From Myxococcaceae bacterium JPH2 (lineage in GTDB: Bacteria > Myxococcota > Myxococcia > Myxococcales > Myxococcaceae): DNA of 64,000 nucleotides. Under the pieces are notes generated by a model. It was not told the origin of the DNA and searched no databases. It was given only the letters and a program-made list of their open reading frames with translations. This document shows, one piece after another, positions 28,977-39,738 of the stretch; position 1 is the stretch's first letter, and every line of letters starts with the position of its first letter. The translations under genes and the position numbers were made by a program. The DNA lies in contig JAEMGR010000003.1 of assembly GCA_016458225.1 (NCBI GenBank), forward strand, positions 682,001 to 746,000. The letters are read 5' to 3'.

Positions 28977-29717
28977 ATGACGGATGAACGGGATGGGATG
29001 GGCGGCGCGACGGGTGCGCGACGCACGGTGCACTGCGAGGACGCGCTGAAGTGGCTGGAGGCGAGCCCCGTGCTGGAGGGGTGCTCGGTGGTGGCCTCGC
29101 TGCCGGACGTGTCCGAGTTCCCCGCGCTCTCGGTGGCCGAGTGGAAGGAGTGGTTCGTGCGCGCGGCGGGGCTCGTGCTGTCGCGCGTGCCTCCGAACGG
29201 CGTGGCGGTGTTCTACCAATCCGACGTGAAGAAGGACGGCGCCTGGGTGGACAAGGGCTACCTGGTGTCTCGCGCGGCGGAGGCGGCGGGCTTCGAGACG
29301 CTCTGGCACAAGGTGGTGTGCCGACGGACGCCGGGGACGGTGACGTTCGGGCGGCCGGCGTTCTCGCACCTGCTGTGCTTCTCGCGGGACGTGCGCGTGG
29401 ACCTGGCGAAGTCCTCCCCGGACGTGCTGCCGGACGCGGGCGAGGTGACGTGGACGCGCGGGATGGGCGTGCGCGCGTGCCAGCTGGCGTGCCGCTTCAT
29501 CCTGGAGCAGACGACCACGCGCACGGTGGTGGACCCCTTCTGCGGACACGGCACCGCGCTGGCCGTGGCCAACGCGATGGGTCTGGACGCGGTGGGGGTG
29601 GAGCTCAGCCGCAAGCGCGTGCGCAAGGCCAAGGCCCTGCGCGCGACCTGGACTCCCGAAGGGCTGGTGCTCTCCGGCACGGGCGCCTCGGGCCCGGAGC
29701 CCGAGGACGCCGACTGA
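28977..29717 (+). CDS. DNA-methyltransferase-like SAM-dependent methyltransferase with atypical catalytic motif
   Basis: A 246-residue protein. The C-terminal half carries motif I of N4/N6 amino-methyltransferases, TVVDPFCGHGTALAVANAMG followed by LDAVGVELSRKR, which binds S-adenosylmethionine. As in beta-class enzymes, the catalytic region lies N-terminal to it, but instead of a (D/N/S)PP(Y/F) motif the equivalent strand end reads CSVVASLPDVSEFPAL. FSHLLCFSRD and MGVRACQLACRFILEQ resemble conserved elements around the SAM site. Target may be DNA, RNA or a small molecule; loss of the canonical tetrapeptide makes the activity uncertain. GTG 28974 is an alternative start. It converges with the ferritin-like gene four bases away. 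Confidence 0.65.
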   Translation: MTDERDGMGGATGARRTVHCEDALKWLEASPVLEGCSVVASLPDVSEFPALSVAEWKEWFVRAAGLVLSRVPPNGVAVFYQSDVKKDGAWVDKGYLVSRAAEAAGFETLWHKVVCRRTPGTVTFGRPAFSHLLCFSRDVRVDLAKSSPDVLPDAGEVTWTRGMGVRACQLACRFILEQTTTRTVVDPFCGHGTALAVANAMGLDAVGVELSRKRVRKAKALRATWTPEGLVLSGTGASGPEPEDAD

Positions 29718-30447: not shown

Positions 30448-31086
30448 TCAGGCGTAGGGCGTGCCCCGCGCGCTCGCGCTCATCATGGCCAGCCCGCGCT
30501 CGAACAGCTCCACGACCGCGGCGCGGGCCACCTCCGGAGCCTCGCCCTTCGCCATTTGACGGAGCCCCTCGCTGTAGGCGACCCGGATGGCCGCGACCAC
30601 CTGGGCGGCCAGCAGCCGGGCGATGGGGTCCTCAGGGGGCGCGCCCACCTGTCCGGTCAGCTCCGCCACCAACACCGCCTCCGCCTCCTCGCCCATCTCG
30701 CGCAGCCGCGCTCGCAGCGCCGGGCTCTCGGCCACCATGCGCCAGAACCCCGCCACGCCCGCGCTCATCTTCACGAACGCGTGGTCGCTCTCCACCAGCG
30801 ACCGCGCCAGCGCGCGCAGCACCGCGACCGGCGACGCCCCCTTGCGGCGCTCCTGGAACGCCTGCCGCAACAGCTCGACGCCCTCCTCCTGCCGGTCGAA
30901 GAAGAGGTCCTCCTTGCGCGGGAAGTAGTTGAACACGGTCATCTTGGAGACGTTCGCCGCCGCCGCCACCTCGGCCACCGTCACCGCGTCGAAGCCGCGC
31001 GCCAGGAACAGCCCCGTCGCCACATCCGAAATCATCTTCCGCGTCTCGCGCCGCTTGCGCGCCCGCAGTCCCTCGTCTTCCGCCAT
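30448..31086 (-). CDS. TetR family transcriptional regulator
   Basis: A 212-residue TetR regulator. Its N-terminal helix-turn-helix reads TVAEVAAAANVSKMTVFNYF followed by PRKEDLFFDRQ, the most conserved stretch of the family. The preceding helix is SDVATGLFLARGFDAV. The C-terminal two-thirds is a helical ligand-binding and dimer domain rich in Ala/Leu. It is divergent from an aromatic-hydroxylase-type FAD monooxygenase with only 63 bases between starts and an 11-base perfect palindrome there, so repression of that enzyme and itself, relieved by an aromatic ligand, is the natural inference. Confidence 0.92.
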   Translation of the reverse strand: MAEDEGLRARKRRETRKMISDVATGLFLARGFDAVTVAEVAAAANVSKMTVFNYFPRKEDLFFDRQEEGVELLRQAFQERRKGASPVAVLRALARSLVESDHAFVKMSAGVAGFWRMVAESPALRARLREMGEEAEAVLVAELTGQVGAPPEDPIARLLAAQVVAAIRVAYSEGLRQMAKGEAPEVARAAVVELFERGLAMMSASARGTPYA

Positions 31087-31132
31087 GCCCCGAAGCCTAC
31101 CCCGAATCAAAACTTGTACTCGGTAAATATTT

Positions 31133-31143
31133 AGACTAAGTCT
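31133..31143. promoter_or_regulatory. Palindrome between divergent TetR and FAD-monooxygenase genes
   Basis: AGACTAAGTCT is a perfect inverted repeat of AGACT around one A, ending 6 bases before the monooxygenase ATG, in the short AT-rich gap between the divergent genes. It is a good candidate operator for the adjacent TetR protein. TTGTAC at 31114 could be a -35 element for the rightward promoter, but no good -10 follows. Confidence 0.5.
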
Positions 31144-31149
31144 TGACTC

Positions 31150-32673
31150 ATGGCGAACGAGACATTCGACGTGGTGGTCGTCGGGGCAGGGCCCACGGGG
31201 TTGGTGCTCGCGAGTGAGCTGGCGCTGGGCGGGGCCTCCGTGGTGGTGCTGGAGCGGCTGGAGGCCCTGGACCCCACCATCAAGGCGGGCTCGCTGGGCG
31301 TGCTGGCGGCGGAGGCGCTGGAGCGGCGCGGGCTGGGGCCGGCGATGGACGAGCAAGAGCGCCAGATGGGCGAGGCCGTGGCGAAGATGGTCCAGCAGTC
31401 GGGCGCCAAGGCGAACCCGCTGGCCCAGGGCTGGAAGAAGATTGGCGGCCACTTCGCGGGGCTGTTCCTCATCGACGCGAGCCGGCAGCGCGAGCCGGAG
31501 CGGCGCTTCCGCGGCGTGAACCAGCTGGGCCTGGAGACGATGCTGGGGGCGTACGCCCAAGCGCGCGGCGTGCCGGTGCGGCGGGGGCAGGAGGTGCTGG
31601 GCTTCACGCAGGACGACACGGGCGTGACGCTGGAGGTCCGCTCGGCGGAGGGCACGCACACGCTGCGGTGCGCGTGGCTGGTGGGCTGCGACGGCGGGCG
31701 CAGCGCGGTGCGCAAGCAGGCCGGCTTCGACTTCCCCGGCACCGAGCCCACGCTCACCGGCCATCAGGCCGTGGTGGAGTTGGATCATCCGGAGAAGCTG
31801 CTGCCGCTCGGCTGGCGGCGCACGCCGGTGGGGATGATGGCGTATGGCCCCACGCCCGGCCGCGTCTTCCTGCTCGAGTTCGACGGGCCGCCCGCGGACC
31901 GCACCGCGCCCGTCACCCGCGAGGAGATTGAGCGGAGCCTGCGGCACGTGAGCGGCACCGACGTGTGCGTGACGGCGGTGAAGACGGCCACCCGCTTCAC
32001 CGACAACGCGCGCCTGGTCACCGACTACCGGCGCGGGCGCGTGCTGCTCGCGGGCGACGCGGCGCACGTGCACTCGCCCTTCGGCGGACAGGGGTTGAAC
32101 CTGGGCGTGATGGACGCGGTGAACCTGGGCTGGAAGCTGGCCGCCACGGTGCGGGGCCACGCGCCAGAGGGGCTCCTGGACTCGTACACCGCCGAGCGCC
32201 ACCCCGTGGCGGAGCGGGTGCTGGAGAACACGCGCGCGCAGGCCGCGCTGATGCGGCCCGACGCCCAGACGACCGCGCTGCGCGCCGTCATCTCCGGCGT
32301 CATGGAGACCGACGAGGGCAACCGCTTCTTCGGGGAGATGATGAGCGGCGTCACGAACCGCTACGCGCTGGGCAGCGAGCATCCCCAGGTGGGGCGGCAG
32401 ACCTCCAACCGCGTCGCGACGGTGGAGCGCGGCGAGGTGCACCTCCACGCGCTGATGGGCGAGGGCGAGGGCGTGCTGCTCGACGCGGGCGACGGCGCCG
32501 CGTCCCAGCTCGCGAGCGCCTGGGCCCCGCGCGTGCGCGCCGTGCGTGTCCAGGGAGAGACGTCCCGGCTGCTGCGCCCGGATGGCTGCATCGCCTGGGC
32601 GACAGACGGCGGCGAGCTGACGGGGCTGCACGCGTCCCTGTCGCGCTGGTTCGGCGCGCCCCCCGCGCCGTAG
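31150..32673 (+). CDS. FAD-dependent aromatic hydroxylase-type monooxygenase
   Basis: A 507-residue class A flavin monooxygenase (PheA/TfdB or polyketide-hydroxylase type). Visible motifs: FDVVVVGAGPTGLVLASELA (G-x-G-x-x-G), WLVGCDGGRSAVRKQAG (the DG motif for FAD/NADPH), and RVLLAGDAAHVHSPFGGQGL followed by NLGVMDAVNLGWKL (the GD motif). The C-terminal 130 residues form the thioredoxin-like tail typical of this subgroup, ending LHASLSRWFG. It uses NAD(P)H and O2 to hydroxylate aromatic compounds, perhaps for detoxification. Control by the divergent TetR gene is inferred from layout. Confidence 0.9.
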   Translation: MANETFDVVVVGAGPTGLVLASELALGGASVVVLERLEALDPTIKAGSLGVLAAEALERRGLGPAMDEQERQMGEAVAKMVQQSGAKANPLAQGWKKIGGHFAGLFLIDASRQREPERRFRGVNQLGLETMLGAYAQARGVPVRRGQEVLGFTQDDTGVTLEVRSAEGTHTLRCAWLVGCDGGRSAVRKQAGFDFPGTEPTLTGHQAVVELDHPEKLLPLGWRRTPVGMMAYGPTPGRVFLLEFDGPPADRTAPVTREEIERSLRHVSGTDVCVTAVKTATRFTDNARLVTDYRRGRVLLAGDAAHVHSPFGGQGLNLGVMDAVNLGWKLAATVRGHAPEGLLDSYTAERHPVAERVLENTRAQAALMRPDAQTTALRAVISGVMETDEGNRFFGEMMSGVTNRYALGSEHPQVGRQTSNRVATVERGEVHLHALMGEGEGVLLDAGDGAASQLASAWAPRVRAVRVQGETSRLLRPDGCIAWATDGGELTGLHASLSRWFGAPPAP

Positions 32674-32838
32674 CGCCCGCGCCGAGCGACGGGAAGGGCA
32701 CTGGCCAACACAGTGCCGCGCCCCGGGTTTGACGGCGCGGACACCGGGCCGCTTTGCTCTCTCCGACAGAGAAAGCGCGGCGCTTCGCGGCGCCGCATTC
32801 CATGGAACGGCTGTGCCTGGTGCAGGGGGGTGACCAGC

Positions 32839-33714
32839 ATGAGGCCACAGGAAGGGCTCTTTCATCCGCCCGGGGCCTTCAGTGCCTTGGCCGTGTGGCG
32901 GTTGAGCCGCGCCAGCGAGGGGGCCCAGGTGCGGGAGGCGGCCTCGCGCGTGCACGCCGAGCTGCGCGCCGCCGAGGGCGTCCACGCCGTGCTCGCCTTC
33001 GACGCGGCCCTGGTGTCTCCGCTCGCCGAGGGCGAACAGGGCGCGCCGCTTTTGCCGCGCCGTGGCGCCCACCTGCGCATCCCTTCCACGCAGGCCCAGG
33101 TGCTGCTCCAGCTGGGCGCCGACACCCAGTCCCGCCTGCAGTGGGCGCTGCGCCGCGCGGCCGCGCTCTTCGCCGGCGTGCTCGTCCCCGAGGAGGAGGT
33201 GCTGGGCGGCTGTCTCGACGAGACCTGCCAGGCCCCCACCGTCGAGGAGATTCGCCGCGCGGCCATCGTCCCCGCGGGCCCCCTGGCCGGCGCCGCGTGG
33301 GTGCTCTACCTGCGCTTCCAGCGCGACTCCATCCGCGCCCGGGCCCGCGCGCTGCGCCTCAGGGGTGACTTGTCTCGCGCGCGTCCCCACGCCGCCGCGC
33401 TCCGGCCCGCGCCGCTGCGAGGCGACACTCCCCCGCTGCGCCACCGCCGCGCGCCCGCGCCCGAGTCGTGGCCCCTCATCCGCCGCAGCTTTCCCTTCCA
33501 CCAAGGCCCCGACGAGGGGCTGGCCTTCGTGGCCGCGTCCTCGGACCCGGCCCGGTTCCGCCGCGCGCTGGACGCCATGCTCGGGCCCGGACTTCCTCCC
33601 CCAGGCGCGCCGCCCTACCAGGCCTCGGCGGTGGGCGGCGGCCTCTACCTGGCCCCCCCAAGGCCCTGGTTCTCCGAGGTGACGCACCAGCCCCAGCGGC
33701 AGGTGGCGCCATGA
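32839..33714 (+). CDS. Dyp-type-peroxidase-like protein apparently lacking the heme ligand
   Basis: A 291-residue protein resembling Dyp peroxidases in outline. IPSTQAQVLLQLGADTQSRL (81-100) and the late RRSFPFHQGPDEGLAFVAAS with DPARFRRALDAMLG, ending SAVGGGLYLAPP, match the family's conserved segments. However, the G-x-x-D-G-T motif reads GCLDET (124-129), and where Dyp enzymes have Q-R-W-V-H-D with the heme-ligating His, this protein has L-R-F-Q-R-D (158-163), placing Arg at the His position. It is probably non-heme and non-peroxidatic. The start has a GGGGGGTGA site. It precedes an isoprenyl-synthase-like gene and a methyltransferase on the same strand. Alignments are from memory. Confidence 0.55.
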   Translation: MRPQEGLFHPPGAFSALAVWRLSRASEGAQVREAASRVHAELRAAEGVHAVLAFDAALVSPLAEGEQGAPLLPRRGAHLRIPSTQAQVLLQLGADTQSRLQWALRRAAALFAGVLVPEEEVLGGCLDETCQAPTVEEIRRAAIVPAGPLAGAAWVLYLRFQRDSIRARARALRLRGDLSRARPHAAALRPAPLRGDTPPLRHRRAPAPESWPLIRRSFPFHQGPDEGLAFVAASSDPARFRRALDAMLGPGLPPPGAPPYQASAVGGGLYLAPPRPWFSEVTHQPQRQVAP

Positions 33715-33881
33715 CGCCCGAGGAAGCGTCCAATGCTCGACGTTCGCGCGGGTGGGCCGATGCGGGATGCCGGACGCGTGCACATCCCTGCGGTCCTGGG
33801 GTCCTCGCGCGGTGGAGTCGCGCCCCAGGCTCCGGCGCCCGGCCATGAGCCGCCGCCCCCGCGCCTTCCCCGGGAGTGACC

Positions 33882-34610
33882 ATGAGCGAGGGAACCGTGT
33901 ACCAAGAGGCGCTGCGCCGGCTGCGGCTCCTGTCGCTGTCGCCGCCCTTCGCGAACCAGGTGCTGGAGGCCCTGGAGTCCGGCCGCCCCGGGCCCCTGCC
34001 CCTGCTGTACGAGGCGGGCGCCGAGGCGGGCCTGGCCCTGCCGGTCCTCCAGACGCGCGGCGCGGGCATCTACTTCGGATTCTGCGCGGCCCGACTCGCC
34101 GCGCCGGCCGTTCGCTTCGGCGCGCCGCTGTTCGGTGAGGGGCCGCGCGTGCAGTACCTGCTGCAGAACCTGGCCTTCTCCACGCTCGCGCACCCGCAAG
34201 CGCGGGTGCCGCAGCATGTGCTGGAAGAGGCCACGCGGCTGCTCGCCTCCGCCGTGGTTCCCCCCGCGCTGAGCACGCCCGTGGAGGCGTGGACGGCGCC
34301 GGTGTTCCGCCGGGTGGCGCAAGGGCTCGCGGGCGTGCAGTGGGCGGCGTACCTGCGCCTGCTGTGGGCGGGCACGGCAATGGAAGACACGGCCGAGGCC
34401 GCGGGACAGAACCTGGGCATCGCCGCGCACGTGGCGGAGGACATCCGCGCGCGCGCGCCGCGCTTCTACGCCATGCCCGAAGAGGACCAGCGCCAGGTGG
34501 CGGCCTGGGGACGCGAGGCCGCCGAGGACCTGCGCCGACACGGCCTGCGCTGTCTGGACGCCGCGCTGCGCAGGCTCGAACCCACGCTGCCGGAGGAGGG
34601 CACCCCATGA
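33882..34610 (+). CDS. Isoprenyl-diphosphate-synthase-like helical protein without Asp-rich motifs
   Basis: A 242-residue, Ala/Leu-rich, all-helical protein. Its overall plan and the C-terminal half (AYLRLLWAGTAMEDTAEAAG followed by QNLGIAAHVAEDIR) recall class I trans-isoprenyl synthases, where a G-x-x-L-G-x-A-x-Q-I-x-D-D helix binds magnesium. Here the second Asp-rich motif is reduced to AEDIR (185-189), and no DDxxD is present in the first half (YEAGAEAGLALPVLQ, then GFCAARLAA). It is therefore probably not a prenyl synthase and may bind a lipid or partner. The ATG follows GGGAGTGACC. Its TGA overlaps the next ATG. An unrelated helical fold is quite possible. Confidence 0.45.
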   Translation: MSEGTVYQEALRRLRLLSLSPPFANQVLEALESGRPGPLPLLYEAGAEAGLALPVLQTRGAGIYFGFCAARLAAPAVRFGAPLFGEGPRVQYLLQNLAFSTLAHPQARVPQHVLEEATRLLASAVVPPALSTPVEAWTAPVFRRVAQGLAGVQWAAYLRLLWAGTAMEDTAEAAGQNLGIAAHVAEDIRARAPRFYAMPEEDQRQVAAWGREAAEDLRRHGLRCLDAALRRLEPTLPEEGTP

Positions 34611-35380
34611 GGGAATCGAGCGCGTCGCTCGGGGAGGCGTTGCCCCTCGCGCCCAGACCCGGACGGGGTCCTCGGGTGCACGACCACGCGGGGATGGTGG
34701 AGGGGCTGCCACCGCCGGGACTGGACGCGGCCACGCTGCGCGGTCTCATCCAAGCCGCGCAGGAGGCCCTGCTCACGGAGTTGGCGCGCGCCATGGGGCC
34801 GCTGCCCCACCCCATCGAGCTGCTGGACCTGGGCTGCGTGCGCGGCGGGAGCCCGGTGTACTGGGCGGCGCGCCACGACGCGCAAGTGACGGCGGTGACG
34901 AGCGTGCCCTCGCACGTGGACATCGTGCGCCGCCGCGCCCAGGCCACGGGATTGGGGACGCGGGTGCGCACGCTGCTGGGCGAGCCTCGGGAGGTGCTCG
35001 GCCGCGCGCGCTTCGACGCGGTGGTGGCCGTGGAGGGAGGTCGCGCCCAGCCACGCGCCGACTGGTTCCGTCAGGCCCGCGCGCTGCTCCACCCGGGCGG
35101 CATCCTGGCCGTGGCGGATTGCTTCCAGGGGCCCCGGACAGGAGGCGTGGACGCGGAGCTGGACGAGGCGCGCGCCGCGGGGCTCGAGGTGGAAGCGCGG
35201 CGGGATGTGTCCTCGCGCGTGGTGGGCTTCTGGACACTCACCTCGGAGCTGCTCGCTCGCGAGACGGCCTCGGCGAGACACGCGCCGCGCGAGGCCCAAC
35301 GCGAGCACCTGTCCTTGCAGCAGGGCTTGCTCGACGGGCGGCTCGAGTACGCGCTGCTCGTCCTGCGACGGCGCGACTGA
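34607..35380 (+). CDS. SAM-dependent methyltransferase, class I
   Basis: A 257-residue Rossmann-fold methyltransferase. Motif I is ELLDLGCVRGGSPVYWAARH (71-90), followed by VTAVTSVPSHVDIVRRRAQA as the second strand-acid region (Ser replaces the usual Asp/Glu), FDAVVAVEGG for motif II, and ARALLHPGGILAVADCF for motif III. The C-terminal helix and strand LQQGLLDGRLEYALLVLRR resembles the end of small-molecule and isoprenoid methyltransferases such as the geranyl-diphosphate C-methyltransferase group. It overlaps the upstream gene by ATGA, so the two are co-translated. Substrate is unknown; a hydrophobic small molecule is suggested by neighbours only. Confidence 0.75.
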   Translation: MRESSASLGEALPLAPRPGRGPRVHDHAGMVEGLPPPGLDAATLRGLIQAAQEALLTELARAMGPLPHPIELLDLGCVRGGSPVYWAARHDAQVTAVTSVPSHVDIVRRRAQATGLGTRVRTLLGEPREVLGRARFDAVVAVEGGRAQPRADWFRQARALLHPGGILAVADCFQGPRTGGVDAELDEARAAGLEVEARRDVSSRVVGFWTLTSELLARETASARHAPREAQREHLSLQQGLLDGRLEYALLVLRRRD

Positions 35381-35524: not shown

Positions 35525-35887
35525 ATGACGGGTTGGTCCAAATGGATGGCGCTGGGCGCGGTGGCGGCGACGATGACCCTCACCGGCTGCAAGAACGACC
35601 GGAACAACAACGGCTCCATCTCCTCGAAGGAGCACAGCGGTGGCGGCGTCGGCTCCACCGGCGCCAGCTACAACGAGGAGGGCACGGGTGGCAGCGGCAA
35701 GAGCGGCACCCACGGCAAGAAGGGCACCATGGCCGCGGACGCGGGCACCATGGGCATGGACGCGGGCTCCGGCGGCTCCGGCATGCTGGACGAGTCGGGC
35801 AGCGGCTCCATGGGCAACGATTCCTCGGGCTCCATGGGCGGCTCCACGGGGAGCAACTCCGGCAGCGGCTCCGACAGCACGCACTAG
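35525..35887 (+). CDS. Small Gly/Ser-rich lipoprotein
   Basis: A 120-residue lipoprotein with signal MTGWSKWMALGAVAATMTLT and the lipidated Cys at position 22 (L-T-G-C). The mature part is low-complexity, rich in Gly, Ser, Asn and Met (GSGSMGNDSSGSMGGSTGS), with no recognisable domain and probably disordered. An AUGGAGGUG-type ribosome-binding site is ideally placed. A strong hairpin follows its stop, so it is likely monocistronic. Similar short disordered lipoproteins are common in myxobacteria; role unknown. Confidence 0.75.
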   Translation: MTGWSKWMALGAVAATMTLTGCKNDRNNNGSISSKEHSGGGVGSTGASYNEEGTGGSGKSGTHGKKGTMAADAGTMGMDAGSGGSGMLDESGSGSMGNDSSGSMGGSTGSNSGSGSDSTH

Positions 35888-36441: not shown

Positions 36442-36501
36442 CGCCTCAGCGCCCCATCTGGCGCGGCTGCTATGGTCCTCCGGACAGCACCGGAGGACGG
36501 C

Positions 36502-39500
36502 ATGCGAAGGTGGACGGTGGCGGTGGTGGTGGCGCTCGTAGGGCTCGTGCTCGCGTTGGGTCTGCTCGTGCATCGAGCACCGCGCAAGACCAAGCCTCAC
36601 GACGACGCGGCGCAATCCCAGACATCGGCGCCGCGCACGGCACCGACAGTCCTCGTCCCCACAGACACGCGCCCGAGCCAGGGCACCGCGCACATCCGCG
36701 GCATCGTGTTCGACGAGCGAGGTCCCGTGGCCGGCGCGCGAGTCCTCGCCACCCGCGCTGAACCGGGCGAGACGCTGTCCGAGCGCACGTGCGAGCCACC
36801 TCCGGATCCGGAGCAAGACGCGGAGCAAGTCTTCGAGAAGACGCCGGTGCCCTGCAGCCAGACGTCTCACCGCGCATTCATCGACCTGGTGCGCCTGCGC
36901 GAGGGCGAAGCACCCGTGTACGCGGAGACGGTCTCCGCCCCAGGCGGCACGTTCACGCTCGAAGGGCTCCCGGATGGCATCTTCACGCTCTGGGCCGAGA
37001 GCGCGCGCGGCGCCACGGTGCGCTTCGGAGTCTTCACGGGCACGGAGGGATTGGAGTTGCACCTCGGTGGCGCGAGCAACGTGGCGGGGGTCGTGTGGGA
37101 AGAGGACTCCTTCACCCCCATTCCCCATGCCCGGGTGACCGCCGTCTCTGACAAAGACACACGCTTCTTCGACGCGGTCGCGGACAAGGAAGGGCGGTTC
37201 CAGCTCGGCCCTCTGCCTGACGAGGTGAACATCCTGGTGGTCGTCCACGCCGACGGGTGGAACCCAGCGATCGTCCCACTCCCCATCATCGAGAACTCGC
37301 TCTACCCCGTGCGCCTCTCCCGCCCCCGCGTGCTTCACGGTCGCGTGGAGGAGCGCGGAGTGCCCGTCGCCGGGGCCAAGGTCCACCTCGAACTCCAAGG
37401 CGACGGCATGGGCGCCGAAACAATGAACACCACCTCGGACGAGCAAGGACGCTTCGTATTCGAGTCGCTGCCCATCGATGCCTACGAGGTCACCGCGAGG
37501 CATGCGAAGAGCAGGGGCCGCGCGCTCGGCAGTCTGTCGGAGCCTCAACCCGCCGAGGTGGTGATCTCGCTGGTCGATATGCTCTTCGCGGAGGGCTCGG
37601 TGCGCGACGACACCGGGAAGCCCGTGACGGGCGCGACCGTGGCCCTGACCCTGGAGAACGGTCCCTATCTTCGAGTCGAGCGGCAGGTCCACGAAGACGG
37701 ACACTTCCGCGTCGGCCCCCTGGAACCCGGGACGTACACCGTCAGGGCCAGCGCGCCGGGATATCTCTCGTATCACGACGGGACGTTGAGTCTCGCCGCG
37801 GACACGAAGCCGCTCGAACTCGTCCTCCAGCGAGCGAGCCTCATCGAAGGACAGGTGCTCGATGGCGCGAAGCAGCCGGTCGCATCCGTCACCATCGAGG
37901 CGTGCCTGATGGGTCCCCGGACGCTCTCCGCGATCGACACGCTGACGTGCGAGCGGGGCATGTCCGATTCGGACGGACACTTCGAGGTGGAGATCTCCAA
38001 GCCCGGCGAATACCGCGTCGAGGCCCAAAGCGAGCAGCACCTAAGCGTCCCCGTGACGGTGCGAGGCCCGGCCCAAGGTGTGCTCGTCACGGTGAGGCGC
38101 GGGGCTCGCATCTCCGGTGACGTCCTCGACGCGAAGGACCAGCCGCAGGAGAGCGCGTCCATCTCCCTTTGGGAGAACAGCCCCTCGGACGAACCCGTGC
38201 CGTTCCCGGTGCGGACGGTGACCGCGGACGCGCAGGGCCACTTCACGCTCCAGGGCCTGCCGGCGGGCCATTACGTCGTGGAGGCCACGCAGACCGAGGG
38301 TGGCGTGGAGCGCACCGCGACCCAGAACCTCGACCTGAGCGACGACGCCGAGGCACAGGTGACCGTGCGGTTCGAAGCGGGATGGTCGCTCGCCGGCGTC
38401 GTGGTGGATGGCGCCGGACACCCCATTCCGGATGCCCGACTTCGCGCCACCGTGGCGCAGAACGTCCTCCCCTCCTGGAAGCAAGGCATCGTGTCGACCG
38501 GCTACCGGGGTGTCGCCATGCCGCTGGGTGCGCGCACGGGGCCCGATGGTCGCTTCGTCCTGCGCCAACTCATGGCGGACGCGTACGACCTGGAGGTCTT
38601 GAAGAGTGACTTCGTCTGTCGAGACGCCAATCCCTGCCAGCGCGTGGAGCGCGGTCAGCCTGAGGCTCGCGTCGTCATGGAGCGCGTGGCTCAGGTGCGA
38701 GGACGCGTCGAGGGGCCCGACGGCGCGCCCCTCACCCAATTCTGGGTGAACACACAATCCTTCGCGAACAAGACGGGCACCTTCTCGCTCCCCATCAACG
38801 AGACCGGGACCGTGCCCTTCACCATCACCGTGCCCAAGCTCGCGCCCTTGTTCCGCTCGGTGGAGGTGCGCCGCGGCGAGGACGTGGACCTGGGCACCTT
38901 GCGCATGGAGCACGGCCGGACGTTGAGCGGACGCGTGGTGGATGCGGAGACCTCTCAGCCGCTGGAGGTCGGCTTGCTGATCTCGGCGCTGAGCAGCGAC
39001 CCCGACTACCCGCAACAGCACCGGCTCCATCACTCCTCCGCGGATGGGACCTTCCGGCTCGAACACATCTCCACCAGTCCCTTCGCCCTGAAGATTGACG
39101 AGCACCGCGCGGGGTATCTGCCCAAGGAACTGGTCATCACTTCCGACATCGAGCAACTCACGGTGAGGATGGAGCGAGGAGCGCGCCTCGAGGTCGACGT
39201 GCGCGACGCACACGGACAGCCTCTGCCAGCCACAGTCGAGCTCAACGGCGGCGACCTGGGCGACCGACGCATCGGGCCCGAGGATCCGAAAGTGGTCACG
39301 GGACTTCCTCCCGGAGCCTACGTGGTGCGCGCGGACGCCGAGTCCCACGCGCACATTCCCAGTCAAACGGTGACGGTGCCCGCGACCGGCAAGGTCTCCA
39401 TCACCCTGACCGAGCAGGTGAGGGAGGGCGGAGCCACGTTGAAGGTTCACGTGATGGACCGCAACGTGGAGCAACTGTTGTGGGTCCCCGGCATCGTGCC

Positions 39501-39738
39501 GTTTCCGCTCACCATGCCTGTCATCGACCAGGTGTTCGACCAAGGCACGCGTCCCGACGCCTGGGAGCCCATGGACATCGCCGTGTTCCATCACCTCCCG
39601 CCTGGCCCCTCCACGCTCGTCTTCACCTATTCCTGGGGAGACACCTCCCTCTTCGCCAAGGAGGACATCAACCTCCCCGCGGAGGGCACCGTCACCCGCG
39701 AGGTGCGCCCCAAGTGGACGGAAGTGCAGAATCCCTAG
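36502..39738 (+). CDS. Large carboxypeptidase-regulatory-like repeat protein, membrane-anchored
   Basis: A 1078-residue protein starting MRRWTVAVVVALVGLVLALG, a signal anchor or uncleaved signal with no lipobox. The rest consists of about nine carboxypeptidase-regulatory-like/transthyretin-type Ig domains, each with a recognisable V-x-G-A-x-V ... D-x-x-G-x-F-x-x-x-x-L-P-x-G-x-Y (for example GPVAGARVLATRAEP, DEQGRFVFESLPIDAYEVTA, DGHFRVGPLEPGTYTVRASA, DAQGHFTLQGLPAGHYVVEA, DGRFVLRQLMADAYDLEV). No catalytic domain is attached. Such proteins are periplasmic or surface scaffolds in myxobacteria. The start was set by GGAGG before the ATG. Confidence 0.85.
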   Translation: MRRWTVAVVVALVGLVLALGLLVHRAPRKTKPHDDAAQSQTSAPRTAPTVLVPTDTRPSQGTAHIRGIVFDERGPVAGARVLATRAEPGETLSERTCEPPPDPEQDAEQVFEKTPVPCSQTSHRAFIDLVRLREGEAPVYAETVSAPGGTFTLEGLPDGIFTLWAESARGATVRFGVFTGTEGLELHLGGASNVAGVVWEEDSFTPIPHARVTAVSDKDTRFFDAVADKEGRFQLGPLPDEVNILVVVHADGWNPAIVPLPIIENSLYPVRLSRPRVLHGRVEERGVPVAGAKVHLELQGDGMGAETMNTTSDEQGRFVFESLPIDAYEVTARHAKSRGRALGSLSEPQPAEVVISLVDMLFAEGSVRDDTGKPVTGATVALTLENGPYLRVERQVHEDGHFRVGPLEPGTYTVRASAPGYLSYHDGTLSLAADTKPLELVLQRASLIEGQVLDGAKQPVASVTIEACLMGPRTLSAIDTLTCERGMSDSDGHFEVEISKPGEYRVEAQSEQHLSVPVTVRGPAQGVLVTVRRGARISGDVLDAKDQPQESASISLWENSPSDEPVPFPVRTVTADAQGHFTLQGLPAGHYVVEATQTEGGVERTATQNLDLSDDAEAQVTVRFEAGWSLAGVVVDGAGHPIPDARLRATVAQNVLPSWKQGIVSTGYRGVAMPLGARTGPDGRFVLRQLMADAYDLEVLKSDFVCRDANPCQRVERGQPEARVVMERVAQVRGRVEGPDGAPLTQFWVNTQSFANKTGTFSLPINETGTVPFTITVPKLAPLFRSVEVRRGEDVDLGTLRMEHGRTLSGRVVDAETSQPLEVGLLISALSSDPDYPQQHRLHHSSADGTFRLEHISTSPFALKIDEHRAGYLPKELVITSDIEQLTVRMERGARLEVDVRDAHGQPLPATVELNGGDLGDRRIGPEDPKVVTGLPPGAYVVRADAESHAHIPSQTVTVPATGKVSITLTEQVREGGATLKVHVMDRNVEQLLWVPGIVPFPLTMPVIDQVFDQGTRPDAWEPMDIAVFHHLPPGPSTLVFTYSWGDTSLFAKEDINLPAEGTVTREVRPKWTEVQNP

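Follow-up and report, generated by a model that had tools for sequence, protein, structure and literature searches.

Probable pseudoenzymes retained at a Citreicoccus locus after partial loss of a Myxococcaceae operon

The window analysed here is a stretch of 64,000 nucleotides from Myxococcaceae bacterium JPH2, a soil bacterium (assembly GCA_016458225.1, contig JAEMGR010000003.1, positions 682,001 to 746,000 of the forward strand), and all coordinates below are counted from its first letter. It comes from a genome of 8.99 Mb that belongs with Citreicoccus, a genus represented in our collection by this genome and one sister genome (G001, locus L058). The window contains three genes, referred to as A, B and C, which had been noticed in a preliminary description made from the sequence alone. 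Coordinates and coding frames confirmed that the three lie on one strand and that C is coupled to B through an ATGA overlap. Comparison with relatives adds two genes that the description had overlooked, a small protein gene (S) and a histidine kinase gene, which lie between A and B elsewhere and are absent here. The features of the locus are as follows.

32839..33714, plus strand: gene A, DyP-fold protein of 291 aa (ATG at 32839, stop at 33714)
33215..33230, plus strand: site in A where, in alignments, nine residues are missing, among them the DyP motif GxxDG that relatives have
33715..33881, no strand assigned: A-B gap of 167 bp, the place of S and the histidine kinase in A-bearing relatives (in Archangium, of a receiver protein too)
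33882..34610, plus strand: gene B, isoprenyl-diphosphate-synthase-fold protein without DDxxD, 242 aa (ATG at 33882)
34092..34136, plus strand: remodelled block in B at the place of the first Asp-rich motif (NLADDxxDG in relatives); four residues are deleted, and the block is the same in the sister genome
34607..35380, plus strand: gene C, class I methyltransferase-like protein of 257 aa, its ATG overlapping the stop of B as ATGA
34832..34852, plus strand: S-adenosylmethionine (SAM) motif of C, reading GCVRGGS where aligned relatives have GCGLGGG
35126..35137, plus strand: site of a 13-residue deletion in C that, in alignments, removes the FDRYWRTRIG region of relatives

Base differences from the sister genome skew by codon position in A (6/2/36 at positions 1/2/3), B (8/4/26) and C (14/5/44), and the three frames are therefore coding; in the 167-bp A-B gap the same comparison gives 4/2/2, and the coding pattern is absent. 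Searches of the gap with four profiles detected no remnant of a kinase, of S or of a receiver protein. A resemblance to the kinase C-terminus that had been seen there by eye was rejected, its real score being reached by 103, 59, 53 and 105 of 300 codon shuffles with the four profiles. A 45-aa open reading frame at 33711-33848 was likewise discarded as a peptide gene, with six non-synonymous and no synonymous codon changes relative to the sister genome.

In order to place the three genes among their relatives, we compared 53 distinct B loci, that is, 56 minus three duplicates (L061-L063, which duplicate L033-L035 and were not counted for B, C or S; the total of 47 kinases is 49 minus two of these duplicates). 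A profile search finds B in 45 of 96 genomes of the family. The usual gene order is S - histidine kinase - B - C, and the operon layout in Myxococcaceae can be written [A]-[receiver]-S-kinase-B-[C], with the bracketed genes optional; Archangium loci, for example, read A - receiver - S - kinase - B and have no C. S is present in 49 of the 53 loci, C in 41, A in 14 and the receiver protein in eight. The kinase occurs in 47, directly upstream of B in 46 of them and downstream in L032 (B-C-A-S-kinase); it is missing from the window, the sister genome, L035 (at a contig end) and the distant loci L053, L055 and L056. A, B and C had been put forward as a system in their own right, a view that this comparison does not support: elsewhere the recurring unit is S-kinase-B, accompanied by C in 41/53 loci, and all three genes occur together in six only (the window, L023, L032, L099, L100 and L105).

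The window locus is the orthologous place of this operon, because homologues of the same flanking genes (those at 28998, 29722, 39890 and 41137) surround the operon in the Myxococcus loci L025 and L026. Its genome holds one match each to B (E <= 1), A (E <= 0.001) and C (E <= 1e-10). Within the family, the two Citreicoccus loci alone are without both S and kinase. The S profile finds no S in the window's genome and matches 42 of the 96 family genomes, which serve as positive control and correspond to the B-positive genomes minus both Citreicoccus and G106. The operon kinase was not found in the window's genome either: none of the 96 kinase matches starts before profile position 167, and the best covers positions 199-449 only, so that we take these matches to be other kinases.

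Several observations concern the parent operon itself. Eight operon kinases have 3-6 hydrophobic segments over threshold. The H-box column contains no His in 13 of the 47 operon kinases (L024, L027, L028, L092, L093, L098, L109, L111, L112, L119, L122, L123 and L124), the NHD of Archangium being replaced in these by SQD, TQE, HQE or similar. A receiver protein accompanies none of the 13, and this suggests that some of them no longer autophosphorylate. In the distant loci L053, L055 and L056, S adjoins B, and neither between the two genes nor next to them was an operon kinase found. Two records, titled Comamonas sp. KCTC 72670 (L040) and Klebsiella pneumoniae metagenome-assembled genome (L056) carry the operon or a distant relative of it and appear to be mislabelled or misbinned. 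The open-access literature searched yielded no description of the operon or of the trio, which is weak evidence, most subscription papers lying outside its scope.

The folds of the three proteins were assessed from profiles and predicted structures. A gives sub-threshold matches to Pfam Dyp_perox_C (E 0.0037) and NCBIfam TIGR01413 (E 2.4e-6), and its model (predicted local distance difference test, pLDDT, 67.9; predicted template modelling score, pTM, 0.70) aligns over most of its length with the DyP peroxidase 6fks_A (Z 24.1, root mean square deviation, rmsd, 3.7, 250 residues aligned). The model thus supports a DyP fold, as first described. B is predicted to have the all-alpha fold of isoprenoid synthases, its model (pLDDT 90.3, pTM 0.89) matching the isoprenyl diphosphate synthase 1rqj_A with Z 21.3 (rmsd 3.0, 234 aligned), where a Z of about 14 is the best reached by mostly helical models without a clear match, according to the note of the structure-search tool; the earlier assignment of B as an isoprenyl-synthase-like helical protein agrees with this. 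At the level of sequence B belongs to no Pfam family, PF00348 rows at E <= 1 being absent for all 21 members of set A3, intact ones included, and a sequence search against solved structures gave no meaningful match. C is by sequence a class I methyltransferase relative (Pfam Methyltransf_25, E 5.3e-9; CMAS, 1.6e-6).

Each of the three has lost motifs that its orthologues keep. DDxxD is conserved in 51 of 53 B proteins, the exceptions being the window and the sister genome, which share RLAAPAVRF at this block; residues 71-90 have a model confidence of 68-69, one of the lowest stretches within the chain (compare 70 for 121-130). The preliminary description had found B to lack Asp-rich motifs, and this stands for the first motif. 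The second is already degenerate in intact B, mostly ED..S.D, with its last Asp replaced in L108 too, and its change in the window therefore carries little weight. GCGLGG is kept in 39 of 41 C proteins; both Citreicoccus proteins read GCVRGG and are without an ESSCYLP-type stretch as well as the 13 residues around FDRYWRTRIG. C, which had been described as a class I methyltransferase, thus carries both a changed SAM motif and a deletion. In A, 9 of 14 proteins keep GF(R/V)DG together with a His after it; the motif is deleted in both Citreicoccus. This 9-residue deletion of the GxxDG segment, including the distal Asp, is the clear loss in A. The reported replacement of the heme-ligand His by Arg depends on the alignment: an ungapped count back from IRR gives Arg, whereas in MAFFT alignments the ligand column is occupied by His202, and the model cannot be relied on around this position (pLDDT <50 over 176-210). 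The IRR arginines are kept, one of which we take to be the catalytic distal Arg. Both Citreicoccus genomes therefore lack the motifs of all three proteins, and A, B and C all look disabled. The closest homologues outside the genus keep the motifs of B and C intact. The A motif is changed in three loci of genus g23 as well, L099, L100 and L105 (the last giving its match in two parts), and these keep S, kinase, B and C.

To explore whether selection still acts on the genes, we calculated the ratio of non-synonymous to synonymous substitution rates (dN/dS) by NG86 for the window and its sister genome, with 13 other genome pairs, chosen by the analyst, for comparison. A small lipoprotein gene (35527-35887) was excluded, as its length is not a multiple of three and its partner has two stops. 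Between the Citreicoccus genomes, dN/dS over whole genes is 0.067 for A, 0.176 for B and 0.121 for C (0.107 over the part of C matched by the hidden Markov model), and neutrality is rejected for each (binomial, 7e-16, 2e-7 and 2e-13, respectively). Third codon positions hold 106 of the 145 differences in the trio (P 1.5e-22), compared to 2 of 8 in the gap. Motif-intact pairs give 0.25, 0.295 and 0.44 for A, and the motif-less pair L099/L100 gives 0.38; the Citreicoccus A is more constrained (Fisher 0.0016 when tested against one pair and 2.9e-5 against a pool of three, L116 being common to two of them). For B, the other pairs span 0.075-0.64, with 10 of 13 above the window's 0.176; for C they span 0.05-0.36, with 8 of 10 above 0.107. 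For this one genome pair, all three genes have been under purifying selection since the two genomes split, about as strong as in motif-keeping relatives, and we conclude from this selection that the trio still makes useful protein. In a tree of the 53 B proteins, Citreicoccus branches inside the starred Myxococcaceae set of 38 rows, with a stem of 0.72 and tips of 0.017 and 0.029, a burst of change followed by constraint.

Taken together, what is seen here are probable pseudoenzymes retained after partial operon loss: A, B and C derive from a larger Myxococcaceae operon, and we think it probable that they were retained as non-catalytic binding or regulatory proteins. By comparison of both Citreicoccus genomes with relatives, the lineage lost S and the kinase from the parent operon; A lost its GxxDG segment, B the Mg/diphosphate-binding DDxxD, and C the middle Gly of its SAM motif together with the YWRTRIG region. 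In this one genome pair the three were then kept by selection, and we infer that they act without their ancestral chemistry. The earlier statement that folds were kept while catalytic residues were lost holds for A and B, where continuing selection fits non-catalytic roles; it had missed that C is damaged too. A precedent for B is given by the small subunits of plant geranyl diphosphate (GPP) synthase, which are catalytically inactive and modulate an active partner (PMC6651613). Three PF00348 matches elsewhere in the window's genome could be such partners of B. A binding role for A and C is our guess.

A number of points weigh against this interpretation. The two Citreicoccus genomes provide a single comparison, with GC bias uncorrected, and some motif-intact pairs show dN/dS as low or lower. 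The dS of A and C (0.19-0.25, compared to 0.09-0.14 in small neighbours) lowers their ratios, and the dN of the trio (0.013-0.030) is similar to that of neighbours (0.009-0.046). In the B tree Citreicoccus forms a long branch, and its nearest join, to L032, on which we place no weight, is flagged as a possible long-branch artefact. For A, the model is of mediocre quality (pLDDT 67.9), and the protein retains the IRR arginines and may retain the heme-ligand His. Since the g23 loci have lost the A motif and keep the rest of the operon, the loss in A need not be tied to those in B and C. Loss of activity is read from motifs, and with respect to partners and expression of A, B and C the argument is built on genome sequence and models.

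Among other explanations, the one that fares best holds that the three proteins remain catalytic, working through new active sites, and are not non-catalytic binders. Purifying selection after the long stem branch would fit any new function, A keeps its arginines and possibly the His, and C is still recognised by a methyltransferase domain profile (E 5.3e-9); we nevertheless consider it unlikely, as B no longer has DDxxD, C has lost both its Gly motif and the YWRTRIG region, and no replacement motif was recognised. It is quite improbable that the genes are decaying pseudogenes yet to gain stops: in favour of this, S and the kinase have gone, all three genes have lost motifs and the B stem is long (0.72), but the motif losses are common to both genomes, the frames are open, dN/dS is 0.07-0.18, and the third-position bias (106/145) is absent from the adjacent gap. 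Equally improbable is the scaffold around a methylated lipid or terpenoid that was first suggested, served by an active methyltransferase, because C, whose best profile matches do include lipid and prenyl methyltransferases (CMAS, cyclopropane synthases, geranyl-PP 2-C-methyltransferase), is itself damaged, and the trio is not conserved as such.

Two functional assignments were tried and dropped. Among seven proteins scanned with PADLOC, only the two C proteins match, to mad2 and within the methyltransferase part, and a defence system was rejected on these grounds. DyP and terpene enzymes are known types of encapsulin cargo; no link to encapsulin was found here, with encapsulin matches in five of six genomes tested, which in the genome of the window lie on contig C10 and not on C3.

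One additional feature was recorded 5' of A.

32674..32838, plus strand: intergenic stretch 5' of A, with 4 differences in 154 aligned bases relative to the sister genome

The trio differs more at its third codon positions (P 2.6e-5), and the stretch is a possible candidate regulatory region, in which no sigma-70-type match was found. Just 5' of A, at 30448-32673, lie two divergently arranged genes, one for a regulator whose start is TetR-like, the other for a flavin adenine dinucleotide (FAD) monooxygenase that scores 371.8 bits against a rifampin monooxygenase profile with a cut-off of 800; among the loci compared, these genes cluster with those of the sister genome only. Downstream, the gene at 36472-39738 (1088 aa) is far more divergent between the two genomes than its neighbours (dN 0.195, dN/dS 0.42).

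Single pseudoenzymes are, to our knowledge, already known. A locus at which all three retained proteins are without motifs that their orthologues keep, and at which selection has been measured, is a clean natural experiment on the passage from enzyme to non-catalytic protein, and it points to an operon (with B in 45/96 family genomes) in which a histidine kinase is combined with a protein of isoprenyl-synthase fold. A broader proposal takes the parent operon for a prenyl-based signalling system of Gram-negative bacteria that has yet to be described, comprising a sensor kinase, a small protein, a prenyltransferase with one Asp-rich motif, a methyltransferase and optionally DyP and receiver proteins, and holds that after loss of the sensing half the three remaining Citreicoccus enzymes jointly gave up catalysis and became a non-catalytic binding module under selection; we regard this as doubtful, if somewhat less so than the alternatives above.

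Known systems resemble parts of this picture. The small subunits of plant GPP synthase are catalytically inactive members of a synthase family related to B and act as regulatory subunits; their active partners are known (PMC6651613), whereas for B there are only the candidate PF00348 proteins. A shares its fold and the IRR arginines with DyP-type peroxidases (6fks) and differs from them in the missing GxxDG segment, its heme ligand being alignment-dependent. For the intact operon, the closest likeness is to a Paenibacillus cluster that comprises the histidine kinase PalP, the NHLP precursor peptide PalX and PalQ, a peptide prenyltransferase of the isoprene-synthase superfamily; in the same account ComQ has the first Asp-rich motif and not the second, and PalQ is named with both (PMC10853753). 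The operon likewise joins a histidine kinase, the small protein S (about 100 aa) and a DDxxD-bearing protein of isoprenyl-synthase fold, and its protein with the first Asp-rich motif does adjoin the kinase (which lies directly upstream of B in 46/53 loci). It differs from PalPXQ in having C as an extra gene and in an intact B with the first motif only, as opposed to both in PalQ; the window has in addition lost S, the kinase and DDxxD. An NHLP identity of S is unsupported: there is no NCBIfam NHLP row among 10 S proteins scanned, comparison with seven myxobacterial NHLP-like stretches gives an hhalign probability of 0.2, and S contains Trp in 9 of 49 copies and has variable ends. For the ComQXPA quorum-sensing system, the likeness lies in the motif pattern of ComQ, which is that of intact B, in the linked kinase and in the receiver protein of 8/53 loci; the differences are that no Trp peptide was found in the operon and that 13/47 kinases are without the H-box His. 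Because S has neither a conserved Trp nor NHLP similarity, we do not claim membership in either group; by analogy, the intact operon may work in a manner similar to PalPXQ or ComQXPA.

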